DNA of 54,011 nt from a virus, in the IMG/VR virus record IMGVR_UViG_3300045966_000076, positions 1 through 54,011 of that record; one strand, 5' to 3'. The notes under the pieces were generated by a model. It searched no databases and had not been told where the DNA came from. It saw only the letters and a list, made by a program, of their open reading frames with translations. A program made the translations under genes and the position numbers. Shown here piece after piece: positions 235 through 54,011 of this stretch. Numbering within the stretch: the stretch's first letter is position 1; each line of letters opens with the position of its first letter.

Positions 235-330
235 CGTCATCGGGTGATAGCTGGTCGCGACGTCGAGGTACGGCACGAGCACCGCCGTCAACGCCGCCAC
301 GAACAGCACGAACTGCAATACGGTCCTCAT
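190..330 (-). CDS. Single-pass small membrane protein (46 aa)
   Basis: ATG at 330, overlapping the stop of the ASCH gene by four bases. Residues 3-22 form one hydrophobic segment (VLQFVLFVAALTAVLVPYL), followed by a short tail on the other side of the membrane. One of many tiny membrane proteins in this part of the genome. No function can be read from sequence. The last 14 codons recur at the right contig end because of the terminal overlap. Confidence 0.65.
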   Translation of the reverse strand: MRTVLQFVLFVAALTAVLVPYLDVATSYHPMTLFAERVAEIVEGIR

Positions 331-710
331 GTCTGCCTCCCTGCGGCCCGCAGCACCCTCGCGACGAGCGCGGGATCCACGGGCCAGAGTCCTTGATGTC
401 CCCGACACTCGATCGGCGGCACCGGCCGGACGTCGACGAGCCGCCACGCGAAGCGGCCGGGCCGGTAGTCGCCGAGTTCCCGCTCGACGGGGTCGAGCTG
501 CGTCAACGTCTCGACGGGCACGACGTCGACCAGCTCGGCCACGGCGACGATCGCGCGCCGGGGCAGGTCCCCGACGCGGGGCCGCTTGGCCGCGTGGATC
601 GCGAGCAGTCCGCGATACCACGTCGGCCAGGTGCGGGTCTCGATGCGCTTGCGACGGTCGACGATCATCGACGCGTATGGTTGATGGATCGTCAGGGCGT
701 ACAGCTTCAC
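327..710 (-). CDS. ASCH-domain (PUA-like) protein
   Basis: GTG start overlapping the upstream stop (GTGA). The N-terminus reads ALTIHQPYASMIVDRRKRIE and then TRTWPTWYRGLLAIHAAKR, the typical beginning of ASCH domains: a hydrophobic strand plus Q-P-Y/W, K-x-I-E-x-R and a W-R-G-x-x-x-I-H-A strand. ASCH domains are PUA-like folds that bind modified nucleotides or RNA; some hydrolyse N4-acetylcytidine. At 127 aa it is a single-domain protein. It sits in the operon of the amidoligase/GATase genes, so reading or trimming of a modified nucleotide is conceivable, but that link is inference. Confidence 0.75.
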   Translation of the reverse strand: MKLYALTIHQPYASMIVDRRKRIETRTWPTWYRGLLAIHAAKRPRVGDLPRRAIVAVAELVDVVPVETLTQLDPVERELGDYRPGRFAWRLVDVRPVPPIECRGHQGLWPVDPALVARVLRAAGRQT

Positions 711-1949: not shown

Positions 1950-2408
1950 CTACTCTTCGCGACGCGCCGAGCGTCGCACGGGCGGCCGCGTCTCGTGACG
2001 ACGCACGAGCATGTGGCCGCGCCAATCCAGCCGCCGATACGTCCGGCGGAACGTGCGCCGGAACATCCACACCGACCAGCGGCACGCTTGCAGCTCCGAC
2101 CGGCCGAACAGGTGATGCGCGAACTCGTGCAGCGCGGTCACGATCGACAGGTTCGACGGATTCAACGTGATGACCTGCGTGTGCAGGTTGTACGAGTCGC
2201 CGAAGAACGACACCGACGAGAACTCGATGCCGCCGAGCGGCTTGCGATAGACGACCGACAGTCGGGTCAAGAGCGCGCGCAGTGCGTCCGGGGTCCGACG
2301 TCGGCCGCGGAACTCGCGCTTCCACGCGCGCACGACGCGGACGGCCGCCGCGCGGTGCCGGATGCGACGCTTCAGGATCCGAGACTTCGACGGGTAGAGA
2401 CTGGTCAT
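1950..2408 (-). CDS. HExxH zincin-type metallopeptidase-like protein (152 aa)
   Basis: ATG at 2408 overlapping the stop of the GATase gene. The key feature is T-A-L-H-E-F-A-H-H-L-F-G around residues 91-102, an HExxH zinc-binding and catalytic motif in a helix. It is preceded by a strand-like stretch (TQVITLNPSNLSIVT), as in small phage zincins. N- and C-termini are very basic. The third zinc ligand is not obvious; a downstream histidine (H132 or H139) could serve. Directly downstream of a class II GATase and an amidoligase, so it may process or remove the conjugate they make. The peptidase fold is well supported, the role is inferred. Confidence 0.7.
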   Translation of the reverse strand: MTSLYPSKSRILKRRIRHRAAAVRVVRAWKREFRGRRRTPDALRALLTRLSVVYRKPLGGIEFSSVSFFGDSYNLHTQVITLNPSNLSIVTALHEFAHHLFGRSELQACRWSVWMFRRTFRRTYRRLDWRGHMLVRRHETRPPVRRSARREE

Positions 2409-3121
2409 CGGCCCCTCCGATTCGCCTTCACGCGACGCGCGATGTCTTCCCACGTCTTCACCGCCGGCGACCGCTTGAACAGCTCCGGCTGCGTCGGCAG
2501 CTTCGTCTTCGCCTTCGACGTCTTGACGCGTAGCGTCTCGTCGACCGTGCGGGTCATCCAGCACGGATCGGCGGCCGCGTAGCTGTCGAACCCGAAGCGA
2601 TTGCTCGCCCAGATTCCCGGCTTCAGCGTCGACCAGCCGCTGCCGAGTCGACGGATCCCGCGCGGGGTCAGCAGGACGAGGCGCTGCGTGTCGGGCACGG
2701 TCTCTTCGAGCACGTCGATCCCGTAGTTCGATCCGATGAAGGACATGGCGACGGAGTCGGACCACGGACCCGGCTCTGCGTCGATGTAGTCGATCCACGC
2801 GGACCACGTCCCGTTGTGGAAGAGCACGCCCTTCGGCGACGACCCCTGCAGACGCAGCCGACTGCCGCGCTTGTCGAGCGGGAACGGGTGACACAGCTCC
2901 GGACACACGCGGCCGATGCTCGCGATGCGCGCGTGGAACACGTACGGCAGCGGAACCGACGCGGCCAGCTCCTTCGCGCGCGCGATCGTGATGTCCTTCT
3001 CGAAGCGCACGGTCTGGCCCGCGATCCACGCGAAGCCGTTGCCGTGCGGGTTCGTGCGCACTGCGCGCTCGATCATGTCGACGGACAGTCGACGCTTTTC
3101 AGCTGTGAGAATGACGCACAT
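2405..3121 (-). CDS. Class II (Ntn) glutamine amidotransferase-like protein
   Basis: I chose the ATG at 3121 because it places Cys at residue 2, the N-terminal nucleophile of class II glutamine amidotransferases after Met removal. Further family features follow in order: NPHGNG (24-29, the loop after the first helix), HARIAS (63-68, the conserved H-x-R region), HPFP (78-81) and LFHNGTW (100-106, the oxyanion/Gln-binding HNG). Such domains hydrolyse glutamine to release ammonia for a partner enzyme. The amidoligase gene lies one small gene upstream, a natural acceptor. The C-terminal third (to 238 aa) has no recognised domain and ends basic. A stand-alone GATase in a phage is uncommon. Confidence 0.85.
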   Translation of the reverse strand: MCVILTAEKRRLSVDMIERAVRTNPHGNGFAWIAGQTVRFEKDITIARAKELAASVPLPYVFHARIASIGRVCPELCHPFPLDKRGSRLRLQGSSPKGVLFHNGTWSAWIDYIDAEPGPWSDSVAMSFIGSNYGIDVLEETVPDTQRLVLLTPRGIRRLGSGWSTLKPGIWASNRFGFDSYAAADPCWMTRTVDETLRVKTSKAKTKLPTQPELFKRSPAVKTWEDIARRVKANRRGR

Positions 3122-3123
3122 GA

Positions 3124-3321
3124 TTAGGACCCCTTCCGATCGATCGGTTGAATGCGAACCCGCGCGCTCGCGGGCGGTGTATGACGCGCGCAGCGCAGCC
3201 ACGCGGTTTCGGTCTGTCCCTTCGCGTCGAGGAACTCGACGACGTTGATCGCGAAGTCCCGGCACTGCCGCGGTCCCAGTGAGCACGTGACGACGTAGCG
3301 CGGACGCGGACGCGGGGTCAT
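3124..3321 (-). CDS. Small hypothetical protein between GATase and amidoligase (65 aa)
   Basis: ATG at 3321 overlaps the amidoligase stop by four bases, and its own stop lies two bases before the GATase start. This makes it part of the same translationally coupled set. It has three cysteines (CSLGPRQC and a WLRCARH), which might bind metal. No family recognised. Confidence 0.6.
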   Translation of the reverse strand: MTPRPRPRYVVTCSLGPRQCRDFAINVVEFLDAKGQTETAWLRCARHTPPASARVRIQPIDRKGS

Positions 3322-4193
3322 TCCGCACCCCCCGTCCGGCGACGCTTGTCGTACTGCTTCGCCATCTTGCGCAGCATCTTGATCAGCTCGCGCATCCGGC
3401 TCGGGTCGATGACGCCGACCGGAGTGCGGCCGTTCGGCGGAGTCTTCGCGCGCCATACCAAGTGGTGCAGCAGCGTCGACATCGCGAACTGTCCGTCACC
3501 GGCCGTCGCGCTGCGCTTGCGCGCGATCGCGGCGATGTCGAACGGAAGCGCGCGGCTATTGTCGAGCGCGCGGCAGACCAGTCCGAGGCACAGCTGCACG
3601 TAGGCAAGAATCTTGACGATGTTGAGCGTCCCGGCGAACACGCGGAACTCGACGCGGCGACCGCGTCCCATTTCGTTCACGTGCTGCAGGTTGATCACGT
3701 GGTAGCGCGAGAACCGCGCGGGGTCGACTTGCCCGCCCTCAAACCCGCGATAGTCGAGCGCGATTGACGAGCAGTAGTGGTTCGCATCGCGCGACGTCGT
3801 GCCGGTCGACGCGAAGAGCGCGCGCTCGAAGTGCGCGACGAGACAAACCAGACGACGCAGCTGATCAGGATTGCCGGTCCAGCCGATGTTGACGTGAAAC
3901 CCCGTCGACCGATTGACGGCGGCTCCCATGACGTTCAACGTCTCGATCATCTGCTCGATGCTGCGCAGTCCGGCGAGACCAGACATCACCGGCGAGACGA
4001 CCTCGCACGCGACATGCGAGCGGCTCGGTTGAATGCTGGCGTCCGATTCCGCTGTCCAGCCCTGATGTCCGGGAATGGCGACGCCGCGATGGTAGCCGCC
4101 GATTCTCCAGCCGCGCGCGGTCAGTGTGTCGTACGGGATCGTGCACTCGATCTCGACTCCGAAGCTCAATGTGTTGACGTCTGTTTTCCTCAT
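3318..4193 (-). CDS. Amidoligase (COOH-NH2 ligase of the glutamine-synthetase-like superfamily)
   Basis: 291 aa; ATG at 4193 with a strong GGGAGAAGG site 5 bases away. Family motifs occur in order: FGVEIE (11-16, metal-binding glutamates), WTAESDASI (46-54), EVVSP (64-68), GFHVNI (98-103), and VEFRVFAGTLN (181-191, substrate/phosphate-binding Arg). These are the signatures of the Amidoligase_2 family, which forms amide bonds between a carboxylate and an amine using ATP. Known relatives sit in operons with GATases, peptidases or gamma-glutamyl cyclotransferases and are thought to make peptide tags or small metabolites. Here a GATase and an HExxH peptidase follow directly. The substrate cannot be told from sequence. 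Confidence 0.88.
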   Translation of the reverse strand: MRKTDVNTLSFGVEIECTIPYDTLTARGWRIGGYHRGVAIPGHQGWTAESDASIQPSRSHVACEVVSPVMSGLAGLRSIEQMIETLNVMGAAVNRSTGFHVNIGWTGNPDQLRRLVCLVAHFERALFASTGTTSRDANHYCSSIALDYRGFEGGQVDPARFSRYHVINLQHVNEMGRGRRVEFRVFAGTLNIVKILAYVQLCLGLVCRALDNSRALPFDIAAIARKRSATAGDGQFAMSTLLHHLVWRAKTPPNGRTPVGVIDPSRMRELIKMLRKMAKQYDKRRRTGGAE

Positions 4194-4206
4194 GTCCTTC
4201 TCCCTT

Positions 4207-4257
4207 ATGGTCAGAATCAAACAAGACCAGTCTAGGGGGTGGCATGGTCAGAATCAA
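4207..4257 (-). promoter_or_regulatory. Possible promoter with duplicated 14-bp motif upstream of the amidoligase gene
   Basis: On the minus strand TTGATT (4252-4257), a 17-base spacer and TAGACT (4229-4234) form a plausible sigma70-type promoter (4 of 6 matches in each box). It would fire about 30 bases before the amidoligase start. The 14-bp sequence ATGGTCAGAATCAA (plus strand) occurs at both 4207-4220 and 4244-4257, so the -35 box lies in one copy and the other copy lies next to the ribosome site. The pair may be an operator. Confidence 0.4.
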
Positions 4258-4334
4258 GCTAAAACGGCAGAAACCGGCCGATTTTCTGCCGATTACAAGC
4301 CCGTCAGATCCGGGCGTTTGGACGCGGGAATTGC

Positions 4335-5621
4335 TTAGGGTTTCTGCGGGTTTCTACGGGTCGACCCGTCCGGGTGACCTGCAGGTCGACCCGTCCGGAC
4401 GTCGCGGCGCACAGGGGAACCAGGCGGGGGCACGGGGGTGCCTGGACGTCGACCCGTCCGGGTGCTCGACGTCCGGGTGCTCGGGTCGACCCGTCCGGGG
4501 GTGCTCGACGTCGCGCCGGTGATGAGCGCGCGCGCGCTGTCGACGTCGGCGAGCGCGGGGCCCGCGTACTCGAAGACCGCGCACGGTCGACCGCCGAGTC
4601 GTCGCGCGAGAATGCCGGATCCGCCCTTGCTGCCGATGCCGCCGGGCCGCTGCTTCAGCGCCCAGACCTTCGATCGATCGAAGGATCGAATCAGCGCCGG
4701 ATGCGCCGGATACGTGTGCACACGCTTCCCGATCGCGCGATACGCGGCGCCGAGCGTGTCGATGAGCGCGAGCGCCAGGCCGAGACCTTGAAAGTCCGGC
4801 AGCGTGACCAGTCGACTGCAGCCCCAGATGTCGTCGACCTTCGCGTGCGGCCGGTAGAGCATCCCGGCGAACGCCGCCATCTGCCCGCCGGTGAAGAGCG
4901 CGAAGCACGCGGCCGATCGATTCAGCTCGGCCGTCAGATAGTGAAACGGAGCGAAGCGACGCCACGCGGCAAACGGGACGCGTTCGACGGCGACCTCGAC
5001 GGGCGGGCGGCGTTGAAGCGACCTCCAGTCGACGGTCATCGTCGCGGGGTCGAGGATCCAGTCCGGCTGCAGCCAGTCGATGATGTCGTAGTGGCAGGAC
5101 GCGGCGACGAACTGCCGGCCGGGCGCTTTGCGGATGTACTTCTGTACCGCGTGGGCGCCGATCTGCGCGACCTGCCGATCGACGACGCTCGTGAACTCGT
5201 CGACGACGATCGGCGAGCTGGCCTCGAGGAGCCGCCGCGCGAGCTCGACGCGGAACCGCTCGCCGTTCGAGAGCACGGCGAACGGGCGCATCCAAGCCGG
5301 GATCGTATTGAAGCCGACGGCCTGGCAGACGGCCGCGATCGCGTCCATCGTCTGCACGTCGGCAAAGTCATCGACGACGGCGGGGGCGGTCCACGCGAAC
5401 TCAGCCGGGGGGCCGAACAGGTGCCGCAGAAGCGTCGTCTTGCCCGACCCGCTCGGGCCGACGATGAGCCCGATCTGCCAGCCCTTCGACTCGATGTCGA
5501 CGTCGCCGTCCCACTCGATGCGCGTCACTGCCCGCGGCGGCACGTCGAACATCGCCGACAGCTGCTTGACGCGCGAGCTGGCGCTCACGGGCGACTCGAC
5601 GCTCACCTTCACCTTCGGCAT
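4335..5621 (-). CDS. ABC ATPase fused to a GNAT-type (Mom-like) acyltransferase domain
   Basis: 428 aa. Residues 1-200 are an ABC ATPase without membrane segments: Walker A GPSGSGKT (55-62), signature LSNGE (117-121), Walker B PIVVDE (137-142) and switch His in ASCHYD (177). Residues about 210-345 match a GNAT fold, with the acyl-CoA loop in PDFQGLGLALAL (275-286) followed by THPALI-like YPAHPALI (305-312). This is the architecture of COG2401 (ABC ATPase fused to a predicted acetyltransferase), whose GNAT part resembles the phage Mu Mom DNA-modification protein. The tail (about 375-428) is low-complexity Pro/Arg/Thr encoded by a DNA repeat. A role in DNA base modification is possible but inferred. 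Confidence 0.85.
   Translation of the reverse strand: MPKVKVSVESPVSASSRVKQLSAMFDVPPRAVTRIEWDGDVDIESKGWQIGLIVGPSGSGKTTLLRHLFGPPAEFAWTAPAVVDDFADVQTMDAIAAVCQAVGFNTIPAWMRPFAVLSNGERFRVELARRLLEASSPIVVDEFTSVVDRQVAQIGAHAVQKYIRKAPGRQFVAASCHYDIIDWLQPDWILDPATMTVDWRSLQRRPPVEVAVERVPFAAWRRFAPFHYLTAELNRSAACFALFTGGQMAAFAGMLYRPHAKVDDIWGCSRLVTLPDFQGLGLALALIDTLGAAYRAIGKRVHTYPAHPALIRSFDRSKVWALKQRPGGIGSKGGSGILARRLGGRPCAVFEYAGPALADVDSARALITGATSSTPGRVDPSTRTSSTRTGRRPGTPVPPPGSPVRRDVRTGRPAGHPDGSTRRNPQKP
4359..4500. repeat. Four copies of a GTCGACCCGTCCGG motif in the 3' end of the ABC-GNAT gene
   Basis: Copies at 4359-4374, 4384-4398, 4448-4462 and 4483-4500, each containing GTCGACCCGTCCGG; the first and last begin with the palindrome GGGTCGACCC. 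They encode the low-complexity tail of the ABC-GNAT protein in more than one frame, so the DNA rather than the peptide seems to be repeated. Could be repeat expansion or DNA-binding sites. Confidence 0.75.
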
Positions 5622-5989
5622 GGATCCTCTCGATCGTTTACCGGATACCGGCCGTCTGGGGCGTCATATCCGGTAAGCCGCCGCTCGTCGTCGGCCTGCA
5701 TCTGGTCGAGCAGCTCGGCGGCCTGCTCGTCGTAGAACCGGGCGGCCTGCTCGTCGTAGAACCGGCGCACGGCGGCGATCCACTGTCGGTTGAGTTCGAC
5801 TATCCGGCCGGGCATGGGGTCGGTCTCAAAGCCGGACGGATCGACCGCTGTCACCGTCAGCGAGTACACGTCCGCGATGCGCAGCGGCTTGGCCGCGAGC
5901 GTCGGCGATGGCGCCGGCAGGCGGGATGCGAGGCCGACGCCGGCGGCCGCGCGCGCGAGCAGCTCGAAGAAGCGGCGACGCGTCGTCAT
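5609..5989 (-). CDS. Putative Tat-exported protein (126 aa)
   Basis: The N-terminus reads TTRRRFFELLARAAAGVGLA, a twin-arginine signal (S/T-R-R-x-F-x-x) followed by a moderately hydrophobic stretch and an Ala/Pro-rich region before about residue 33. The mature part has no recognised domain and contains a direct repeat RFYDEQAA-RFYDEQAA (residues about 76-91), with the matching DNA repeat at 5722-5765. It overlaps the start of the ABC-GNAT gene by 13 bases. Tat-exported proteins are unusual in phages. Confidence 0.65.
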   Translation of the reverse strand: MTTRRRFFELLARAAAGVGLASRLPAPSPTLAAKPLRIADVYSLTVTAVDPSGFETDPMPGRIVELNRQWIAAVRRFYDEQAARFYDEQAAELLDQMQADDERRLTGYDAPDGRYPVNDREDPCRR

Positions 5990-6195
5990 TCCAGCACCAC
6001 ACGAAAGCGCACGTACGCATCGTCGTCGGATTCGAGCACGCGGGCGACGACGACGCGGCGCAGACCGGCCCGGCTCCCGCCACGGTCGCGCGCCATCTGC
6101 AGGAACAGCTGCCAGAGATCGAGGCCGAGCGAGCGCGGGAATTGCCGGATGAAGTCTGGCGTCAGTCGACAGTCGTACACGAGATACTCACTCAA
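5986..6195 (-). CDS. Hypothetical protein (69 aa)
   Basis: Probable TTG start at 6195, overlapping the upstream stop as TTGA, which fits the stop/start coupling used throughout this genome; longer in-frame versions would run through the upstream gene. Sequence includes CRLTPDFIRQFPRSLGLDLW and ends VRFRVVLE. No family recognised. Confidence 0.5.
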   Translation of the reverse strand: MSEYLVYDCRLTPDFIRQFPRSLGLDLWQLFLQMARDRGGSRAGLRRVVVARVLESDDDAYVRFRVVLE

Positions 6196-6518
6196 TTCCG
6201 CACCCGCACCACAAGCGTCGGCGCCAGGATGACCGTGACCTCTGCGCCGGCGAGCAGCGTGATACTGCACGGCGCCGACATCGGACAGGTCCAGTCGGCG
6301 GTGTCGATCGTGCGGCGGTCGAGCGGCTCATGGCTCACGCCCGCGAGCAAGACGACCTCGACCGCGCGGGGTCGGCCGGCGGCGTCGGTCGTGTACAGCG
6401 TGACGGTCTTCGCCGCCGGCTGGACGGACGCCGAGACAATCGCCCAAATGATGAGCGCGACGACGGTGCCGATCCCGATCGCGGCCCCGTCGACCCACGC
6501 GCGCCGCCGGTCGGTCAC
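6192..6518 (-). CDS. Membrane-anchored hypothetical protein (108 aa)
   Basis: GTG start overlapping the upstream stop (GTGTGA). After a short basic N-terminus (VTDRRRAWVDG) there is one hydrophobic helix (AAIGIGTVVALIIWAIVSAS), then about 70 residues rich in beta-forming residues, predicted to be outside. The outer part has two cysteines (TCPMSAPC) that could form a disulphide. No family recognised. Confidence 0.6.
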   Translation of the reverse strand: MTDRRRAWVDGAAIGIGTVVALIIWAIVSASVQPAAKTVTLYTTDAAGRPRAVEVVLLAGVSHEPLDRRTIDTADWTCPMSAPCSITLLAGAEVTVILAPTLVVRVRN

Positions 6519-6760
6519 ACGTCGGCCCCCTGCGCCTGCGCCTTGAGCCAGCGCGCGGTGCGCCGGCGATCGCGCTGACGAGTCCACCGCTGGTCGCGTG
6601 GCGCCACGGCCGCGGGCTGACCGCGCTTGCGCCAGGCGCGCTTCAGTCGCCGCACGTCGCCGGCGGTCGGCAGTTCTGACCGGCGCGGTTCCCGGCCGAG
6701 CGCGCGCACGAGGTCCCAGTAGATCTGGCGACGCAAGGCCTTGACGCGTCGGCCGCTCAC
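6515..6760 (-). CDS. Small basic hypothetical protein (81 aa)
   Basis: GTG start overlapping the stop of the ParB-like gene (GTGA). Strongly basic and helical (VKALRRQIYWDLVRALGREP, LKRAWRKRGQP, RQRDRRRTARWLKAQ), suggesting nucleic-acid binding. Its position right after a ParB-like protein suggests a shared job, but no family is recognised. Confidence 0.55.
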   Translation of the reverse strand: MSGRRVKALRRQIYWDLVRALGREPRRSELPTAGDVRRLKRAWRKRGQPAAVAPRDQRWTRQRDRRRTARWLKAQAQGADV

Positions 6761-7359
6761 GAGATCACCGCCTTGACGGTGAGCCCGTCGGCCTCGAACC
6801 GCTCCAGCAGCAGCTTCTGATGCGCTTCGTCGTGACAGTCGACCATGATGCGGTACTCCAGCGCGCCCATCTGCGGCGACGTGTCCGGCGAGCCGGCGGT
6901 GGCGATGAAGCGTACCAGCTCGTCTTCGGTCCACAGCGCGCCGAGGTCGACGCCGGCGGCCTTGAGACCGGCGACGATGTCGGCGTCCCAGTCGAGGCCG
7001 ACTTCGGCGACTCGATTATCGGCGAGCGCCAGGGCCTTCGCGCGCGGGTCCGTGGCGAGGTCGAGGTCCTCGCGCTGATGGACGACCAGCCGGTCGCCTC
7101 GAGTTTTCACGAGCTGCAGCTTGAGGCCGAGCGCGAGCGCGCGCTTGAGCGTCTTGTTGCCGGCGATGACGCGGCCGTAGCGATCGGCCATGATGCCGCG
7201 GCCGGCGCCGCTGGTCCGGATCGACTGGTCGAGCATCGCCTGTCCGCGCGGGGTGCCCTTGTTCGCGTTGTGCGGGTCGGGCACGAGGTCTTCGAGCGAG
7301 CGGATGATGGCCGGTCGCCGCCGGCGCGCGGGCTTCTTCTTCGGTCGACGCCGGGTCAC
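6757..7359 (-). CDS. ParB-like nuclease-domain protein (200 aa)
   Basis: GTG start coupled to the upstream stop. After a basic leader (TRRRPKKKPARRRRP) come the ParB/Sulfiredoxin-fold features: LVPDPHNANKG (about 25-35), GRVIAGNKTLKRALALG (62-78, the G-x-x-x-x-G-x-x-x phosphate loop region), ALALADNRVAEVGLDWD (110-124) and LWTEDELVRFI (142-152). It lacks the helix-turn-helix and dimer domain of partition ParBs. This short ParB-like type in phages is often encoded near DNA methylases or modification genes. Here it lies about 1.1 kb upstream of the ABC-GNAT gene in the same operon. A catalytic or nucleotide-binding role in DNA modification is inferred. Confidence 0.8.
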   Translation of the reverse strand: MTRRRPKKKPARRRRPAIIRSLEDLVPDPHNANKGTPRGQAMLDQSIRTSGAGRGIMADRYGRVIAGNKTLKRALALGLKLQLVKTRGDRLVVHQREDLDLATDPRAKALALADNRVAEVGLDWDADIVAGLKAAGVDLGALWTEDELVRFIATAGSPDTSPQMGALEYRIMVDCHDEAHQKLLLERFEADGLTVKAVIS

Positions 7360-13304: not shown

Positions 13305-13736
13305 TCACCGCGCCAGGATGATCGTGCGCTTGCCCTCGAAGGCCGCCATGACCAGCTCGCGCAGCGTGAGGACCTTCTCGGCCTGCGCGCGCGCGATGAG
13401 ATCCGGATCGCGGGCGCGCAGCTCGTCGAGCAGTTCGTTGACCTGCTCGCGCAGCACGTCGAGGTCGTCGGTCGCGTGCGTATGGATGACCTCGATGAGC
13501 GATCGGCCGGCCATGACGAGCAGCTGCTGCTCATCGGGCGGCCGCTCGGCGAACGCGTCGACCCACAGGTTCGCCGCCGGGTGCACGTGCGCGAGCGCGC
13601 GCAGCACGACGGCCGAGAGCAGCCGGCCGAGTTCGCAGGTCGAGCAGACGACGCGCGTCTCGTCGGCCCAGCTGCAGCCGGTCGCACACGGCGCGTCGTC
13701 TCGGCACTCGCAGTACTGACAGACGCCGGGGGTCAT
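13305..13736 (-). CDS. Zinc-finger plus helical protein (143 aa)
   Basis: ATG at 13736, overlapping the ParB stop. Residues 6-34 carry a cysteine cluster (CQYCECRDDAPCATGCSWAD and VCSTCELG) that could bind two metal ions. The rest is helical (LREQVNELLDELRARDPDLI). A partner of ParB is possible because of the tight coupling. No family recognised. Confidence 0.6.
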   Translation of the reverse strand: MTPGVCQYCECRDDAPCATGCSWADETRVVCSTCELGRLLSAVVLRALAHVHPAANLWVDAFAERPPDEQQLLVMAGRSLIEVIHTHATDDLDVLREQVNELLDELRARDPDLIARAQAEKVLTLRELVMAAFEGKRTIILAR

Positions 13737-15262
13737 CGGCCCCCCGCTTTCGCCTGCGGCTTCGCTGTGACTCCGGACGTCTGGACTGGCTCGCAGCTCT
13801 TCACGTCGACCTTCAGCGCCTTCGCCCAGCTGACCATCTTCGCCTCGTTGCCCGACCAGTCATACCGGAACGTCTCGCCGATCGCGCGGTCGAGCAGCGC
13901 GCGCGACAGTCCGGCCGGCTTCGTCGATCCCGGCAGTCCGTACGCGGCGAGCAGCTTGGCGAAGACCGGCTTCGGCAGCGTGCCGTTCAGCTTCGCGACG
14001 GCCGCGCGCGTCGCCTTTTCCAGCGCCGGCTTGAACGTCTTCCAGCGCAGCTCGCGGGCCTCGCGCTCGGCCTTGTCGCGCGCGTCGCGGGCGGCGAGCG
14101 CGGCTTCCTGGCGCTTGCGATTGCCGGCCGCCGTGGTCTTGCCCGCGGCCTGCGCCTTCTCGCGCTTCTTCTTCTCGTTGACCTCGCGCTTCCAGTGCAC
14201 GACGCACTTGTCGCGCGCGATGCAGACGTCGAAGGCCTGGCCGCGGTCGGCGCCGGCGGCGACGACGCCCAGCGTCGCGTGCTCGCACTTCGGATTCCCA
14301 CGCGTGCCGTCGGCGCGCTTCCATGACTTCGGCCCGTAGGTGCGCTCGTCCTCGTCGCGCGCTTCCGGCTGCGTGTAGTGCTCGTGCGTGATCGCGATGA
14401 GCGCGCGGCGCAGGTTCCGCTCGGCCATCGCCGTCGATGATGCGGTGGCCCGCGCCTGCTGCTCGACGGCGGCGACGCGCTCGGCGACGTCGCCGAAGAC
14501 GAGCGGGGCGGCGTGCGCCGCGTGCTCGACGTCGAACCGCACGTGGTCATCGATCCAGTGCTGCAGTTCGCGGACGGTGACCGCCTTCAGGCCGTAGCTC
14601 GGATCCTTCTTGCGCGCGGCCTCGTCGTACGGCAGACCTTCCTCGCGCGTCCAGAGCCCGCCGCGCTTGTCGCCGTACTCGCCCGTGCCGACGTGAATGA
14701 CGCGGATCTGGTCCTCGGCCTTGAGGCGCGCGATGAGGATCGCGTGCCCGACGGAGATCCGATCGGCGGCGAGGAACTTCTTCGCGGGCGGGATGAGATC
14801 GTTCAGCTTCATCCGGTCCCACACCCACTGCGGCGACATGCCGAGGCGGGCCGCGATCGACTCGGCGCTGTGCTTCGTCGGGTTCGAGTCGATGAGCGCG
14901 CGGTAGCCCTTCGCCTGTTCGAGCGGCGTGAGATCGCGCCGCTGGATGTTCTCGATGAGCTGAATCTCGAGGACGGCCTCGTCGTCGAGCGCGCGGATGA
15001 TCGCCGGGATGTCGGTGACGCCGTTCGCGGCCAGCTTCGAGGCGCGCACGCGTCGCTCGCCGGCGACGATCTCGTAGCCGGACTTGCCGCGCACCTGGCG
15101 CACGAGGATCGGCTGCACGACGCCCTTCTGCTTGATGGATGCCGCGAGCTCGGCGAGGGCCGTCTCGTCGAAGTTCTCGCGCGGCTGCGTCTTCGAGGCG
15201 AAGAGCTGGTCGAGCGGGATGCGCTCGAAGCGGTCGGGTGTTGCCGTCTGGGGTGTAGTCAT
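13733..15262 (-). CDS. parB: ParB/Spo0J family CTP-dependent DNA-binding protein
   Basis: 509 aa. N-terminal CTP-binding domain with all three boxes: TQPR (25-28) with GVVQPILVR (47-55), GERRVRA (68-74) and ENIQRRDLTPLEQA (104-117). A helix-turn-helix follows (SAESIAARLGMSPQWVWDRM, 132-151), as in partition ParBs that load at parS and slide as CTP-bound clamps. The C-terminal 280 residues are unlike chromosomal ParB: a Cys/His group (KCEH, DVCIARDKCVVHW at about 315-350), a Lys/Arg/Ala-rich helix and a further domain. A perfect parS-type palindrome lies at 20195-20210. No ParA is encoded. Roles could include plasmid-prophage maintenance, host ParA use or regulation. Confidence 0.9.
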   Translation of the reverse strand: MTTPQTATPDRFERIPLDQLFASKTQPRENFDETALAELAASIKQKGVVQPILVRQVRGKSGYEIVAGERRVRASKLAANGVTDIPAIIRALDDEAVLEIQLIENIQRRDLTPLEQAKGYRALIDSNPTKHSAESIAARLGMSPQWVWDRMKLNDLIPPAKKFLAADRISVGHAILIARLKAEDQIRVIHVGTGEYGDKRGGLWTREEGLPYDEAARKKDPSYGLKAVTVRELQHWIDDHVRFDVEHAAHAAPLVFGDVAERVAAVEQQARATASSTAMAERNLRRALIAITHEHYTQPEARDEDERTYGPKSWKRADGTRGNPKCEHATLGVVAAGADRGQAFDVCIARDKCVVHWKREVNEKKKREKAQAAGKTTAAGNRKRQEAALAARDARDKAEREARELRWKTFKPALEKATRAAVAKLNGTLPKPVFAKLLAAYGLPGSTKPAGLSRALLDRAIGETFRYDWSGNEAKMVSWAKALKVDVKSCEPVQTSGVTAKPQAKAGGR

Positions 15263-38260: not shown

Positions 38261-40321
38261 TTACGCGCCGGGGTTCTTGAAGATCGAGCGGAAGTCGGCG
38301 GCCTTGAACTCGGTGTCAAGCCGCGCGCGGAACTTCACGCCGTCCACGTCGAACCCGTCGACCTGGCGCACATCGGGCCCCTCGTTGCCGTCGAGCACGC
38401 CGTAGTAGAGAACCGGCACCCCGGACGCCGCGCCGACCGCGGCGTACCACGAGAGCGTCGACGCGACGTCGAGTCGCGGCTCGACGATGAGCGTGAGCGG
38501 CGTGCGGCCGCCAGGCGCGAACGGGTTCACGTTCGAGGCCTGCTGCGCGGTGATCTGGGTGATCTGCTTCTCCGCGATCGTTTCCTTCGCGGCCGGCACG
38601 ATGAGGTACTGCATCTGCAGGTTCAGCAGCGTCAGCCCGTCGAGGCCCTTCTGCACGCGCAGCGCGGCGCGCGCGGCGCCGAGCGACGTGTCGCTGATGG
38701 CGTCGGAGCTGGCCGACAGGTTGCCGTGCGCGGCGATGAAGAGCGCCAGGCCGTCGCCCATCGTCGGGTTCGTGGTGATCTCGGCCCACGCCAGATCCGA
38801 TTCGAGGTCGCGCGCCTTGCGGCCGAACGCCGCCGGGATGTCGCCGAAGGCGTTGAGGTCGTCGTTGATCAGCGCCTGCCGGGTGATGGCGAAGATGCGG
38901 CCATAGGTCTCCAGCTGGGCCGTCTCCTTGCCCTCGGTGATGGTGCCGTGCGTGAACTCGCCGTGCTCGTTGATCTTCACGAGGCCGGGCGCGTCACCGA
39001 TCTGCACCTGTCGCGACGGCTTGAAGTCCGTCAGACTGACGAGCTTCGCGAGCGGCCGCCAGGTCTGCGGCGCCGCCTCGTACGCCGCGCGCAGATTCTT
39101 CTTCGCGACGTCTTCGAGCAGGATCGGAAAGTCCGACGTCGTGTGGTAGCCGGTGCGCGAGAGCATCGCGTCGACGAGCTGCGAGCGCGTCATCATCGTC
39201 GTCCGCGTGCCGCGCGCGTTGAGGAACGCCCGGCCGATGTCGAGGATGGTCATGCCCCGGTACCGTCGGCCGTTGTCGGTGAGCGGGAAGCAGAGCTGGC
39301 CCTTCGCGTCGACGCGCTCGGCGTCGATGCGGTGCAAGAGCGCCTCGACGATGCCGGCCCGCGCGTGCACGAGCGGATCTTCCTGGCCGGCGATCTCGAC
39401 GCGCCCGCGCGTCGCGCCTTCCGACGGCCCGACGTCCTGGCCCCCGCGCGTCTTCAGCTCGTCGAGGATCCGGGTCTGGCACTCTTCGAGTGTCAGGTCG
39501 GAGTCGATCAGCTGACGCTCCAGCTCGCGCGGCATCCGCGCGGCCTCGCACGCGTTGCGGATGCCCTGCACCCGCGCGCGTTCGGCGGCCCGGCCCCGGT
39601 CAACGTCGTTCGGGGTGAGTGATGCCGGCGGCGGCTGGGCCGGGGGATCCGGCCGCAGCGGACTGTTCTCGGCGATGGTCTCGGCGATGCGGGCAGCGGC
39701 GGTCTGTTCGCCGGCGGCGGCGGTCGGTTCCATGACGGGCTCCTTCGTGCGCGTGATGTACTCGCAGGGATGCGTGGGGACGGCTTTGCCGGAGCGCACC
39801 TGTGCGGCGGCGTCGGCAGGCATGGGAACCAGCGAGATCTCGTACGGCTCCCAGTCGGTGGCGGTGCGGACGGGGATCGAGCCGTCCTCGCCGGTGGTTT
39901 CCTCGAACTTGTGAATGATGTAGCCGACGCTGACGTTGCGGACGATCTTGTCTTTCACGTCGCGCACGATGTCGCGGACCTTCTCGCGCTGCGAGAACCG
40001 CACGCGCGCGACGGCCTTCTTGCCATCGACCTTCGCGGAGTCGTCGACGACGACGCCGATCTGCGCGGCGATGTCCCACGAGCTGTGCGAGTCGAGCAGC
40101 GGGCCGCCGTTGTTCAGGCGATCGAGTCGCACCGCCTTCGGATCCATCGAGAGGCGCTCGACGTACTTCTTGCCCGTCCACCAGTCGGTGCGCATGACCG
40201 GGGCGCCGGTCGAGAAGACGACGTCGACGCTGAGGTCTTTCTCATCGAAGGACCGCGGCTGGAGTTCGGCGAGGCGAGAGAACAGCGGCAGATCGACCGT
40301 CTGCGCTGCAGCGGGGGCCAC
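38261..40321 (-). CDS. Prohead protease-major capsid protein fusion (686 aa)
   Basis: GTG start at 40321 (ribosome site weak, so the exact start is uncertain). Residues 1-190 are a prohead serine protease: GPLLDSHSSWDIAAQIG (His 79), VRNVSVGYII (Ser 131) and PYEISLVPMPADAAAQV. A Pro/Ala/charged segment (about 195-300) could be the scaffold or delta domain. The rest is an HK97-like major capsid (GRRYRGMTILDIGRAFLNAR, DAPGLVKINEHGEFTHGTIT, VLYYGVLDGNEGPDVRQVDG). The protease probably cuts itself off to give the mature shell protein. No separate capsid gene exists nearby, which supports a genuine fusion. Confidence 0.85.
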   Translation of the reverse strand: MAPAAAQTVDLPLFSRLAELQPRSFDEKDLSVDVVFSTGAPVMRTDWWTGKKYVERLSMDPKAVRLDRLNNGGPLLDSHSSWDIAAQIGVVVDDSAKVDGKKAVARVRFSQREKVRDIVRDVKDKIVRNVSVGYIIHKFEETTGEDGSIPVRTATDWEPYEISLVPMPADAAAQVRSGKAVPTHPCEYITRTKEPVMEPTAAAGEQTAAARIAETIAENSPLRPDPPAQPPPASLTPNDVDRGRAAERARVQGIRNACEAARMPRELERQLIDSDLTLEECQTRILDELKTRGGQDVGPSEGATRGRVEIAGQEDPLVHARAGIVEALLHRIDAERVDAKGQLCFPLTDNGRRYRGMTILDIGRAFLNARGTRTTMMTRSQLVDAMLSRTGYHTTSDFPILLEDVAKKNLRAAYEAAPQTWRPLAKLVSLTDFKPSRQVQIGDAPGLVKINEHGEFTHGTITEGKETAQLETYGRIFAITRQALINDDLNAFGDIPAAFGRKARDLESDLAWAEITTNPTMGDGLALFIAAHGNLSASSDAISDTSLGAARAALRVQKGLDGLTLLNLQMQYLIVPAAKETIAEKQITQITAQQASNVNPFAPGGRTPLTLIVEPRLDVASTLSWYAAVGAASGVPVLYYGVLDGNEGPDVRQVDGFDVDGVKFRARLDTEFKAADFRSIFKNPGA

Positions 40322-47273: not shown

Positions 47274-47491
47274 AGATTCCACCATCGGGTCAGCAGTTTG
47301 ATCTCGTACGCGTCGCGCAGACCGCGCAGCCGACGCAGCTCGATCGCGGCCGCGACCGCGTCGAGGTCGAGGAAGGATGGGTTGTAGTTGACGTCGTCGA
47401 TCGCGTCGTCGATGACGAGCGCCTCTTGTAGAAACGGATCATCGTCCGGGTAGTGGCGCCGGAGTTCTTCCAGTTCGTCGTCAAGGTTCAT
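47270..47491 (-). CDS. Small acidic protein (73 aa)
   Basis: ATG at 47491, coupled to the terminase stop. Acidic, helical (NLDDELEELRRHYPDDDPFL, DAVAAAIELRRLRGLRDAYE). Links terminase and the Ntn hydrolase; might be a head-assembly or hydrolase partner. No family recognised. Confidence 0.6.
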   Translation of the reverse strand: MNLDDELEELRRHYPDDDPFLQEALVIDDAIDDVNYNPSFLDLDAVAAAIELRRLRGLRDAYEIKLLTRWWNL

Positions 47492-49413
47492 CGTCGACCT
47501 CGGAACCACTCGCGCTTCGGCACCCACGGCGTGCGCGCCGGCTTCGGCGGCTTCGGTTTCGGCGGGATGCCGAGCCGCGCGGCCAGGACGTCGAGCTTCT
47601 GATCGAGCAGACGCATCGCCGCGAGCGCCATCACGGCGCAGTCGAGCATCTCGTTGTGCCGGATCTTTTTCCAGAAGGTGATCGGGAATCCGCGCTGGAA
47701 CTTCCGCACCAGCTTTTCGCTCGTGAGCTGCAGCGCGAGCCCTTCGTCAGCCCATGTCGAATGCGGGATATGGACGTAGCCGGGGCCGGGCTCGCCGACT
47801 TTGAAGCGCGCGTACCAGAGCGCCTTTGCCGAGTCGACGCCGAGCGTCCAGAGGGCGACCTCGCGCTCGGTGTTCCCGTAGCGGCGAGCCGACGGCGTGA
47901 ACTTCACGATCGGGCGCTCGCCGGCGCGACCGATGCTCGCGTGACAGCGCAGCGTCGCCTTCTTCGCGGCGTACTCATAGACCTCGTCGGTGCGGTGCCC
48001 GGCCGAGTCGATGAAGGACGCCGCGATCGGCAGCTGCACGCCGACCGGATGCCGGTAGCTTTTTTCGAGCAGCTGATCCAATTCCTTCCACGGCTCGGGC
48101 TGCGACGTGTCGCCGTCGAAACGGCGGCGGTCGACGAGCCACGCTTCTTCGCCAGGGCCCCAGCCGATCACGAGGGCCTCGAGGCGATCGTCCTGCGTGT
48201 CGATGCCGGCGGTGATGAGACACACGCCGGCCGGCACGTCGAACGCGTCCGGGTACGACTCCTTCCGCAGCAGCAGCACATGTGACTCGACGCCCTCGCC
48301 CTTGTCCTGCTCGACGGGCTCGCCCAGCGTCGTGTTCTCCCATGTGTGCATCTCGCTGGGATCGCCGGCCTCCTGCTTCGCGTGCGCGTCGAGGAAGCCG
48401 GCGACGATGTCGGCCAGCGACGACAGCGGCGAGTACGCCTCCCAGATGTGGAACGACACGATGCGGCGATCGCGGCGGTCGGGGTTCGTCGGCCGCCACT
48501 CCCCGCGCGCGAGCACCGCGATGCGCTCGGCTTCGTTGATGTGGTGCTCACAGGCCGGACACTTCAGATACGCCGTCGCCGGATCGTTGTCCTGCCAGCG
48601 CACGTTCGCCCACTCATACGTGTGCAGGTGCGCGCAGCTCGGGCAGGGCACGAAGTACCGGCGCTGGTCGCCGCGGTGGAACCACGTATCAATCGGCGCC
48701 CCGACGAGCGTCGGCGAACTCAGCATGAGAATCCGTCGCCGGCGCTTGAAGGCACCCGTGCGCTTGCGCGCGATCGCGATGGTGTTGCCCTCGCCGGGGA
48801 GCTGATGCGGGTAGCGGTCGATCTCGTCGAGGACAAGGAACCGCGTGGGCCTGGCCGCGAGCGACGCGGCCGAGTTCGCGCCGCCGATCGCGATGCTCCC
48901 GCCCTTGAACGTCTTCTGCAGCGTCGTGTTCGACGCGTCCTTCTGTCGCTTGTGGCCGACGACCTCGGCCAGCGCCGGACTGGCTTTGATGACGGGTTCG
49001 AGCCGGTTCTTCGAGAAGTCCTCGGCCATCGGCTTCACGGTCGGCTCGACGACGAGGATCGGGCAGGGGTCGTGCTTGATGTGGTACGCGACCATGTTCA
49101 CGGCGCAGGCCGTCTTGCCCCACTGCGAGCTGCCCATCACGACGGCCGTCTCGACGCCGGGCTCGTGGAAGACGTCGAGGATCCCGCGCTGGTAGGGGGC
49201 GAAGCTGGTCTGCCACTTCGAGCCGGCGAGCGGCCCGGTCGTGTTCACGATCTCGCGGTCGGAGAACTCGCTGACGCGAAGGCGCGGCGGGGGCGCGAAC
49301 CCGGCGAGCGCGCGCCGTCGCACGATCTCGATCGGCGACGCGCCGAGGAAGAGCAGCTCGGGCGCCGCCGTCGGCGGGAGTGGCCCGATCTCGCGGGTTT
49401 CGACGTGTGTCAT
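47488..49413 (-). CDS. Terminase large subunit, GpA family
   Basis: 641 aa, ATG at 49413. GpA-type ATPase: QTSFAPYQRGILDVFHEPGV, Walker A-like MGSSQWGKTACA and Walker B FLVLDEIDRYP; zinc-binding C-x-x-C pairs (VPCPSCAHLHTYE, KCPACEHHI); and a nuclease region beginning ITAGIDTQDDRLEALVIGWG with the acidic EVYEYAAKKA that follows. It packages DNA into proheads and cuts concatemers. The family is used by both cos and headful phages. Confidence 0.92.
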   Translation of the reverse strand: MTHVETREIGPLPPTAAPELLFLGASPIEIVRRRALAGFAPPPRLRVSEFSDREIVNTTGPLAGSKWQTSFAPYQRGILDVFHEPGVETAVVMGSSQWGKTACAVNMVAYHIKHDPCPILVVEPTVKPMAEDFSKNRLEPVIKASPALAEVVGHKRQKDASNTTLQKTFKGGSIAIGGANSAASLAARPTRFLVLDEIDRYPHQLPGEGNTIAIARKRTGAFKRRRRILMLSSPTLVGAPIDTWFHRGDQRRYFVPCPSCAHLHTYEWANVRWQDNDPATAYLKCPACEHHINEAERIAVLARGEWRPTNPDRRDRRIVSFHIWEAYSPLSSLADIVAGFLDAHAKQEAGDPSEMHTWENTTLGEPVEQDKGEGVESHVLLLRKESYPDAFDVPAGVCLITAGIDTQDDRLEALVIGWGPGEEAWLVDRRRFDGDTSQPEPWKELDQLLEKSYRHPVGVQLPIAASFIDSAGHRTDEVYEYAAKKATLRCHASIGRAGERPIVKFTPSARRYGNTEREVALWTLGVDSAKALWYARFKVGEPGPGYVHIPHSTWADEGLALQLTSEKLVRKFQRGFPITFWKKIRHNEMLDCAVMALAAMRLLDQKLDVLAARLGIPPKPKPPKPARTPWVPKREWFRGRR

Positions 49414-50237
49414 TACGTGTCCGTACGCGTGATGACGCGCTCGGCGTCGGCCAGGTCGACGAGCAGTTCGTGCATCGCCACTTCGAGCTCGGCCTCGAGG
49501 CCGGTCACGCCGCCGAGCGTGAACGCGCGGGCCAGTCGGTCGGCAATCATAGCCGGGCACGCGAGAATCCGCGCTTTGATCGCCTTCACGTCGTCGCCCC
49601 AGCGGCGCTCGACCTCGTCGGCGGGCAGCAGTTTGCCGGCGCGCATCTGATACCGCTGCTCCGACTCCATCGCCTGCGCGCGTTCCTTCCGCGCGCGCTC
49701 GATCGCGACCGATGCGGCCGGGTCGCCGCCCTTGGCCTGCGTCTCACGCTGCGCGAGCCAGCCGCGGACCTCCAGCTCGCGATACTTCGAGGCCTTGCCC
49801 TTGCGCCCGCGCTCGGCCGTGGGCATTCCGTCCTGCTCCCACTTCGTGACGGTCATCATGTGGACCTTGAGCCGGGCGGCGAGTTCGCGCCGGGTGAGCA
49901 GCTCGCCGGCGGCGCTCGCGTCTGGTCCCGCATCGGCCGACGACGCGGCCGCATCCAGGCCGAGCCGCCCTTCGAGGGCGCGCAGCTGCGCGGCGGCATC
50001 GCGCGCGATCGCGATGAGCGGGTTCGGCACCGTGTGCCCGCGCGAGTTTCTGACCAGCTGACTGGTCTTCGCGATGCCGTCCTCGGCCTGCCGCCACCGC
50101 GCCCAGAGCTGACAGTACGCCGCGAGCAGCTCGACGTCGACGGGTCCGCGCTTCTGGAGTTCGCGCGCGATCTGGAGCCAGCGCGCACGGGCCGCGCCGG
50201 CCAACTCCGGCGGCGGCGGGGGCGTCTTCGCGCTCAT
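49413..50237 (-). CDS. Terminase small subunit, P27-like plus Nu1-like fusion (274 aa)
   Basis: ATG at 50237, overlapping the large subunit by one base. N-terminal part (13-95) is P27-like: ELAGAARARWLQIARELQKR, GPVDVELLAAYCQLWARWRQ and NSRGHTVPNPLIAIARDAAA. The C-terminal part (115-274) is Nu1-like: a winged helix-turn-helix (LTRRELAARLKVHMMTVTKW) then KYRELEVRGWLAQRE and a long charged helix. Each half alone would be a normal small terminase of a different family. Confidence 0.75.
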   Translation of the reverse strand: MSAKTPPPPPELAGAARARWLQIARELQKRGPVDVELLAAYCQLWARWRQAEDGIAKTSQLVRNSRGHTVPNPLIAIARDAAAQLRALEGRLGLDAAASSADAGPDASAAGELLTRRELAARLKVHMMTVTKWEQDGMPTAERGRKGKASKYRELEVRGWLAQRETQAKGGDPAASVAIERARKERAQAMESEQRYQMRAGKLLPADEVERRWGDDVKAIKARILACPAMIADRLARAFTLGGVTGLEAELEVAMHELLVDLADAERVITRTDT

Positions 50238-53776: not shown

Positions 53777-54011
53777 CTCTTCAGTCGCGCGCGAGCGACT
53801 CGCCGACGTCCTGCAGACGCTTGGCGAACTCGCGCGCCTCCTTCTTCGTGTCGAACGTCACGACCGGCGGCGCCGGCGAGCCGCCCCTGCTCTTCAGTGA
53901 GCAGCGCGCCGGATTCGGTCGACTCGTCGTACTCTTCAATCTCGATCCACACGTTGTAGGTCTTGCTCATCGGATGCCCTCGACAATCTCGGCGACGCGT
54001 TCGGCGAACAG
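53777..54011. repeat. Right copy of the contig-end overlap, with a frameshift
   Basis: Repeats 1-234 with one extra C at 53884-53887. The insertion breaks the 62-aa gene (copy at 53781-53970) after about residue 29. The final 45 bases copy the 3' end of the 46-aa membrane-protein gene. Confidence 0.9.
53781..53970 (-). pseudogene. Frameshifted end copy of the 62-aa gene
   Basis: Identical to 5-193 but for one inserted C, which shifts the frame after residue 29 and fuses the rest out of frame into the next gene. Most simply a sequencing or assembly error at a homopolymer in the overlap rather than a true second gene. Confidence 0.8.

Follow-up and report, generated by a model that had tools for sequence, protein, structure and literature searches.

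ABC ATPases combined with a GNAT domain have been predicted to acylate a DNA base, with phage pT24 given as an example (Iyer and colleagues, as summarized in the text of PMC7824862), and phage pairs of an amidoligase and a glutamine amidotransferase (GATase) are known, for which the relevant passages of two papers suggest roles at the cell wall or in superinfection (PMC3890496, PMC10580990). The window analysed here, the whole 54,011-bp IMG/VR phage genome record IMGVR_UViG_3300045966_000076, carries both kinds of genes side by side as two joined modules. Module A consists of a ParB-like protein, an ABC ATPase-GNAT fusion (ABC-GNAT) and an ASCH-domain protein, and module B consists of an amidoligase, a class II GATase and a small HExxH protein. 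Judging from sequence comparison, we consider it somewhat probable that the locus is a phage DNA-hypermodification cassette, in which ABC-GNAT would act as a base acyltransferase and the amidoligase and GATase would make or finish the group that it attaches.

Exchange of ABC-GNAT and mom

The fusion protein of the window falls into family phrog_11143, with the full ABC ATPase motifs (Walker A at residue 55, LSNGE at 117 and Walker B, IVVDE, at 138) followed by a GNAT domain, the Pfam cut-offs being exceeded. The AlphaFold2 (AF2) model of the GNAT domain has a predicted local distance difference test score (pLDDT) of 90.4, and its Foldseek matches have the GNAT fold. The family also includes a protein of Tenacibaculum phage pT24 (36% identity, E 7e-45). 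An HY pair at residues 227-228, after GNAT helix 1, is invariant in the aligned ABC-GNAT set; to judge by eye, this pair and an Arg before an LPD motif look like counterparts of the catalytic residues of Mom. The last ~60 residues of the window protein (window 4335-4500) are of low complexity and are encoded by GACGGGTCGAC repeats, with four copies here and one elsewhere in the window.

The best new support comes from mom, the DNA-modification gene of phage Mu, which stands in for ABC-GNAT at the same locus in three cases, once inside an amidoligase cassette. Up to where their tail genes end, Porphyromonas phages 012a and 006a match at 90% identity over 5.0 kb and at 85% over 3.2 kb, and their final 87 bp are also common (83%); between these common stretches, 012a carries a Mom homologue and 006a carries ABC-GNAT plus a formyltransferase. 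In Pseudomonas phage Komp_PAO1_1, the 206 bp before ABC-GNAT are 70% identical to the sequence that precedes mom in JD024. In the locus L103, a ParB-Mom pair (Mom matching phrog_1384, 5e-45) faces an amidoligase-GATase-ASCH block, and relatives of L103 have ParB-ABC-GNAT at that place. The view that ABC-GNAT would be a DNA-base acyltransferase doing the job of Mom is thus well supported by comparative genomics, and the protein quite probably modifies DNA.

In Appa, L311 and L312, too, a ParB-like gene lies ahead of Mom, and a search of viral contigs for relatives of the Mom protein of L103 gave two short contigs with ParB-Mom and no amidoligase in reach. Aeromonas phage PX29 has both an ABC-GNAT and a Mom homologue (GU396103.1 53140-54318; NC_023688.1 36309-36881), so the two are not strictly exclusive within one genome.

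Joint occurrence of amidoligase and ABC-GNAT

The original prediction had proposed a search of genome neighbourhoods, which found the joint set in at least 14 divergent phages, though the modules usually occur apart. Chance neighbourhood was rejected because of this recurrence. ABC-GNAT lies in the fetched flank of 14 of the 86 amidoligase loci, nine of these 14 being recovered by the amidoligase search alone, and an amidoligase above cut-off is present in 2 of 49 ABC-GNAT records; these joint-set counts include related phages. Between joint loci the amidoligases are roughly 26-62% identical and the ABC-GNATs 34-73%. The two genes are codirectional in the window, L018, L100 and L113, and opposed in L079, L096, L101, L106, L111, L154, L157 and L160. 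Along the amidoligase tree, ABC-GNAT appears or disappears nine times, and supported branches force at least five of these changes; the absence of ABC-GNAT from L104, which has almost the same amidoligase as L111, may reflect truncation. In a separate search with the L101 ABC-GNAT, each of the six loci with 62% identity or more to it had an amidoligase (in L219 as pieces only), and none of the 73 others did. Together, these data indicate that the link between amidoligase and ABC-GNAT is real but confined to certain lineages.

An amidoligase and a GATase occur together, with or without the HExxH-type protein, in 33 of the 86 amidoligase loci. A large group of amidoligases, L107-L163, has neither GATase nor ABC-GNAT; in those of its loci that were checked (L105, L112, L121, L126), a ParB-DNA methyltransferase protein (phrog_498) lies a few kb off on the opposite strand.

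ParB-like, ASCH and enzyme partners of ABC-GNAT

A ParB-like gene is a standing partner of ABC-GNAT, with ParB profile matches in 90 of 94 ABC-GNAT loci, such as those of Gordonia phages Jace and Sisko, Arthrobacter phage EastWest and Streptococcus phage Javan523. In the window, the name ParB-like applies to the phrog_620 match but not in the sense of a canonical ParB: the PHROG ParB-like families were the sole match of this protein, Pfam ParB and helix-turn-helix (HTH) domains were absent from it in the Pfam scan, and a canonical copy with ParB_N and HTH lies at 13733-15262. In L096 (8947-10785, minus strand), the ParB-like protein and ABC-GNAT form a single open frame of 613 amino acids (aa), a natural fusion that supports a physical partnership of the two. 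Short open reading frames (ORFs) just before ABC-GNAT in Komp_PAO1_1 (L303, 4717-4914) and in Porphyromonas phage 006a (L307, 8747-8905) match the ParB profile weakly (7.5e-6 and 0.035, respectively) and are perhaps ParB remnants.

The ASCH assignment in the original prediction was borne out, the PF04266 score being 29.1 bits against a cut-off of 21.2. ASCH was found in 17 of 43 ABC-GNAT records versus 2 of 43 amidoligase records chosen for having no ABC-GNAT nearby (Fisher 1.5e-4, uncorrected for kinship), and one of these two, L119, has an ABC-GNAT elsewhere in the record. The ASCH protein is a candidate reader of the modified base.

Within 4 kb of ABC-GNAT, the 175 loci sampled contained an aspartate decarboxylase plus a coenzyme A (CoA)-transferase III in 14 cases (about six distinct kinds), an amidoligase in 16 and a formyltransferase in three, and no locus combined two of these three partner kinds. 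The aspartate decarboxylase (PF02261) and the short CoA-transferase III (PF02515) always occur together, downstream or upstream of ABC-GNAT depending on the phage (L091:7056-8167; L071, L072, L076, L252 and L264-L269). Among cultured phages, Gordonia phage Jace has the aspartate decarboxylase and CoA-transferase, Gordonia phage Sisko has the formyltransferase, and Arthrobacter phage EastWest has the core genes only. The joint locus L018 additionally carries a MaoC-like gene. The substrates of these enzymes are amino acids, CoA esters or one-carbon units, which would fit a role as makers of an acyl group.

Organization of the locus

The window is a near-complete genome of a tailed phage with a circular map, as its ends (1-234 and 53777-54011) share a 234-bp repeat (99.6%) and the near-identical contig L083 spans the joined ends. 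In addition to the genes in Table 1, it carries portal, tape measure, RecT-like and replication genes, and across the joined ends the terminase genes lie downstream of the cassette.

The six ORFs originally named, from the ASCH gene to the ParB-like gene, all lie on the minus strand at the same positions, in agreement with the single polarity claimed for them. Starts are coupled within 7359-4335 (ParB-like to ABC-GNAT) and within 4193-1950 (amidoligase to HExxH protein) but not between these blocks, which are divided by a 141-bp gap with a repeat; a single operon, in the form first stated, was therefore rejected. The 14-bp repeat TTGATTCTGACCAT (starts 4207 and 4244) has only these two copies in the whole window. 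The gap (4194-4334), a possible promoter or operator of the amidoligase block, showed neither a sigma-70 promoter pattern nor a terminator pattern. In a PADLOC search, mad3 (6.5e-11) and mad8 were matched only in the generic manner of ABC proteins, and the ParB-like gene matched MTase_II weakly; a known defence system was therefore rejected.

Table 1. Features of the window discussed in the text
Feature	Position	Strand	Match or characteristic
ASCH-domain protein	327-710	-	PF04266 1.7e-6, phrog_3193 2e-32
Small zincin-like protein	1950-2408	-	HEFAH; AF2 pLDDT 92.6
Class II glutamine amidotransferase-like protein	2405-3121	-	MCV N-terminus with catalytic Cys2, HARIAS, HNGT
Small protein, 65 aa, overlapping the amidoligase stop	3124-3321	-	No family match
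Amidoligase_2 (GS-fold carboxylate-amine ligase), 291 aa	3318-4193	-	PF12224 2e-18
Intergenic gap	4194-4334	.	14-bp direct repeat ATGGTCAGAATCAA at 4207-4220 and 4244-4257
ABC ATPase with C-terminal GNAT acyltransferase, 428 aa	4335-5621	-	PF00005 2.5e-8, PF00583 1.6e-4, phrog_11143 6e-94
Four small orphan genes between ParB-like and ABC-GNAT	6515-6760, 6192-6545, 5986-6190, 5609-5989	-	ORFs
ParB-like domain protein, 200 aa, GTG start	6757-7359	-	phrog_620 2.1e-14
Capsid/protease	38261-40321		
GpA-type terminase	47488-49560		
Terminase small subunit	49413-50237		

Among the orphan genes, those at 5609-5989 and 6192-6545 had no homologues in the fetched loci, and those at 6515-6760 and 5609-5989 had no match in the family search.

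Proteins of module B

The amidoligase scores 67.6 bits with PF12224 against a cut-off of 22, and its active-site motifs GVEIE, DAS, EVVSP, GFH, RYHVIN and VEFRVFAGTL are intact and invariant in profile set A2, in line with its original assignment; it had no match among PDB sequences. The GATase had no Pfam match as a single sequence, and a five-sequence profile that includes it (A3) matched GlmS and PurF at 1e-9 and EgtC weakly. Together with the N-terminal Cys and the HxR and HNG motifs, this match to known members places it among the class II GATases, as had been proposed. The search for its close relatives gave only the near-identical contig, which also has the only homologue found of the 65-aa protein between the two genes. 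Two proteins encoded beside the amidoligase of the phage of L041 (L084, 824-1435 and 462-1130, minus strand) appear by eye to be AIG2/gamma-glutamylcyclotransferase-like (YGSN, YGSL), and the GATase of phage C75C1 may, from its annotation, bear a C-terminal domain of this kind.

The remaining member had been called an HExxH peptidase. The motif is present as HEFAH, but it is missing in about half of the homologues, so the label of peptidase is weak and was rejected as a defining part of the set; the structural model resembles minigluzincins weakly (best E 0.1). HExxH-type homologues, mostly with an amidoligase, also occur in metagenome-assembled genomes labelled Planctomycetota, Phycisphaerales/Phycisphaerae or unassigned bacterium (L297-L301), labels that hint at hosts or at misbinned phage contigs.

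Proposed function and alternatives

In the proposed cassette, the GNAT domain would move an acyl (or aminoacyl) group from CoA onto a DNA base, the ABC ATPase and the ParB-like partner would load or position it on DNA, and the ASCH protein would bind the modified base. Module B may make or amidate the transferred group: the GATase would free ammonia from glutamine, and the amidoligase would activate a carboxylate with ATP and form an amide, either on the donor or on a base already in DNA. The outcome would be phage DNA that withstands host restriction. The sequences themselves show the domains and gene content, the conservation of the set and the exchange with mom at one site; DNA as the target, the acyl donor, the amide step and the protection from restriction are the parts of this scheme that we infer. 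The amide step is plausible, since the Mom product of phage Mu itself carries an amide.

Several observations weigh against this reading. Each module mostly occurs without the other, so that neither needs the other: no ABC-GNAT was nearby in 21 of the 33 loci with amidoligase and GATase, and none of the partner enzymes searched for was within 4 kb in 142 of the 175 ABC-GNAT loci. The joint loci are environmental contigs, partly of the same metagenomes, and virion DNA chemistry is not known to us for any family member examined. Moreover, Mom ranked only 43rd in the fold search with the GNAT domain, ABC-GNAT had no match to phrog_1384, and hhalign gave a probability of 0.2% with two Mom profiles, indicating no detectable sequence homology between the GNAT domain and Mom. 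Thus, the ABC ATPase-GNAT fusion of the original prediction stands, whereas its "Mom-like" is an analogy. The two-part system predicted there has gained support as GNAT-based DNA modification with amide-making enzymes, from the mom exchange at three loci and from the recurrence of the set, and needs correcting in that the modules are usually apart.

More tentatively, the locus may be one version of a modular DNA-acylation platform, in which a ParB-like protein and a GNAT writer (ABC-GNAT or Mom) would be combined with exchangeable acyl-making cassettes and ASCH readers to give undescribed bases. The cassettes would be aspartate decarboxylase plus CoA-transferase (for example, for a beta-alanyl group), formyltransferase, and amidoligase plus GATase (for amides).

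It is possible, if doubtful, that the modules have two independent functions, the ParB-like, ABC-GNAT and ASCH proteins modifying DNA and the amidoligase and GATase, with or without the zincin-like protein, altering the host cell wall or making a small amide or peptide, in line with proposals for phiEco32 and Marvin. The many amidoligase-GATase loci without ABC-GNAT and the gap with its repeat between the two blocks are consistent with this, as are the cell-wall or superinfection roles suggested for such pairs of LUZ24-like, OM43 and phiEco32 phages in passages of PMC3890496 and PMC10580990. However, ABC-GNAT is present in only 65 of 50,697 phage records but in 9 of the ~79 loci fetched by amidoligase alone, it is strongly associated with the HExxH-type cassette (Fisher 7e-7, likewise uncorrected for kinship), and the same cassette accompanies Mom in L103.

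Acylation by ABC-GNAT of a protein target, such as a host or packaging protein, in place of DNA seems improbable. ParB-ABC-GNAT often lies next to terminase genes, a common arrangement having the terminase small subunit behind it (Terminase_4 was matched by 14 of the 86 downstream genes sampled, and a pooled Pfam scan of downstream genes gave chiefly terminase small subunits and single metabolic enzymes), which could point to a role in packaging, and the top PDB matches of the GNAT domain model are protein and small-molecule acetyltransferases. Yet mom, too, belongs to the late genes of Mu, so that a position among late genes or beside terminase genes suits a DNA target as well as a protein target, and both the exchange with mom at the same sites and the association with ASCH argue for DNA. 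Mere hitch-hiking of functionally unlinked genes in an accessory region inherited by related phages is very improbable: although metagenome 3300047160 is the source of several joint loci, which form clades, and the labels cluster on the tree, the proteins are as little as about 26% identical, orientations differ, at least five gains or losses are forced, and Mom substitutes for ABC-GNAT.

For the favoured reading, a hypermodification cassette, the exchange with mom makes base acylation by ABC-GNAT, so far a prediction only, directly testable in cultured phages of laboratory hosts, and the partner enzymes point to what the attached group may be, an amide here and a beta-alanyl or formyl group elsewhere. 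If true, this would enlarge the set of hypermodified bases and give a function to at least some of the phage amidoligase/GATase pairs, which have been puzzling.

Comparison with known systems

The ergothioneine proteins EgtA and EgtC likewise pair a GS-fold ligase with a class II GATase-fold protein, and the GATase profile matches EgtC weakly. They differ from the window pair in belonging to another pathway and in that EgtC does not supply ammonia but cleaves a gamma-glutamyl amide by hydrolysis. The pairs of phiEco32, LUZ24-like, Marvin and OM43 phages have the same two families side by side as the window; in the passages of PMC3890496 and PMC10580990 that describe them, ABC-GNAT, ParB-like and ASCH proteins are not reported with them. 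The predicted base-acylating ABC ATPase-GNAT proteins (phrog_11143) are of the same family and have the same domain order as the window protein. The text of PMC7824862 that covers them does not contain the amidoligase/GATase/ASCH set, the mom exchange or the aspartate decarboxylase (PanD), CoA-transferase and formyltransferase partners, which its cited source may describe; parts of the set may have been described earlier in the 2009 and 2013 source papers.

Mom of phage Mu (phrog_1384), which carries out momylation to N6-carbamoylmethyladenine, differs from ABC-GNAT in having no ABC ATPase, no amidoligase or GATase in the Mu locus and no detectable homology. Both, however, are GNAT-type enzymes, both appear by eye to have an HY pair behind the first helix and an Arg in a strand further on, both have a ParB-like partner (Mom in some phages), and both occupy the same locus in Porphyromonas phages, in Pseudomonas phages and in the L103 cassette.

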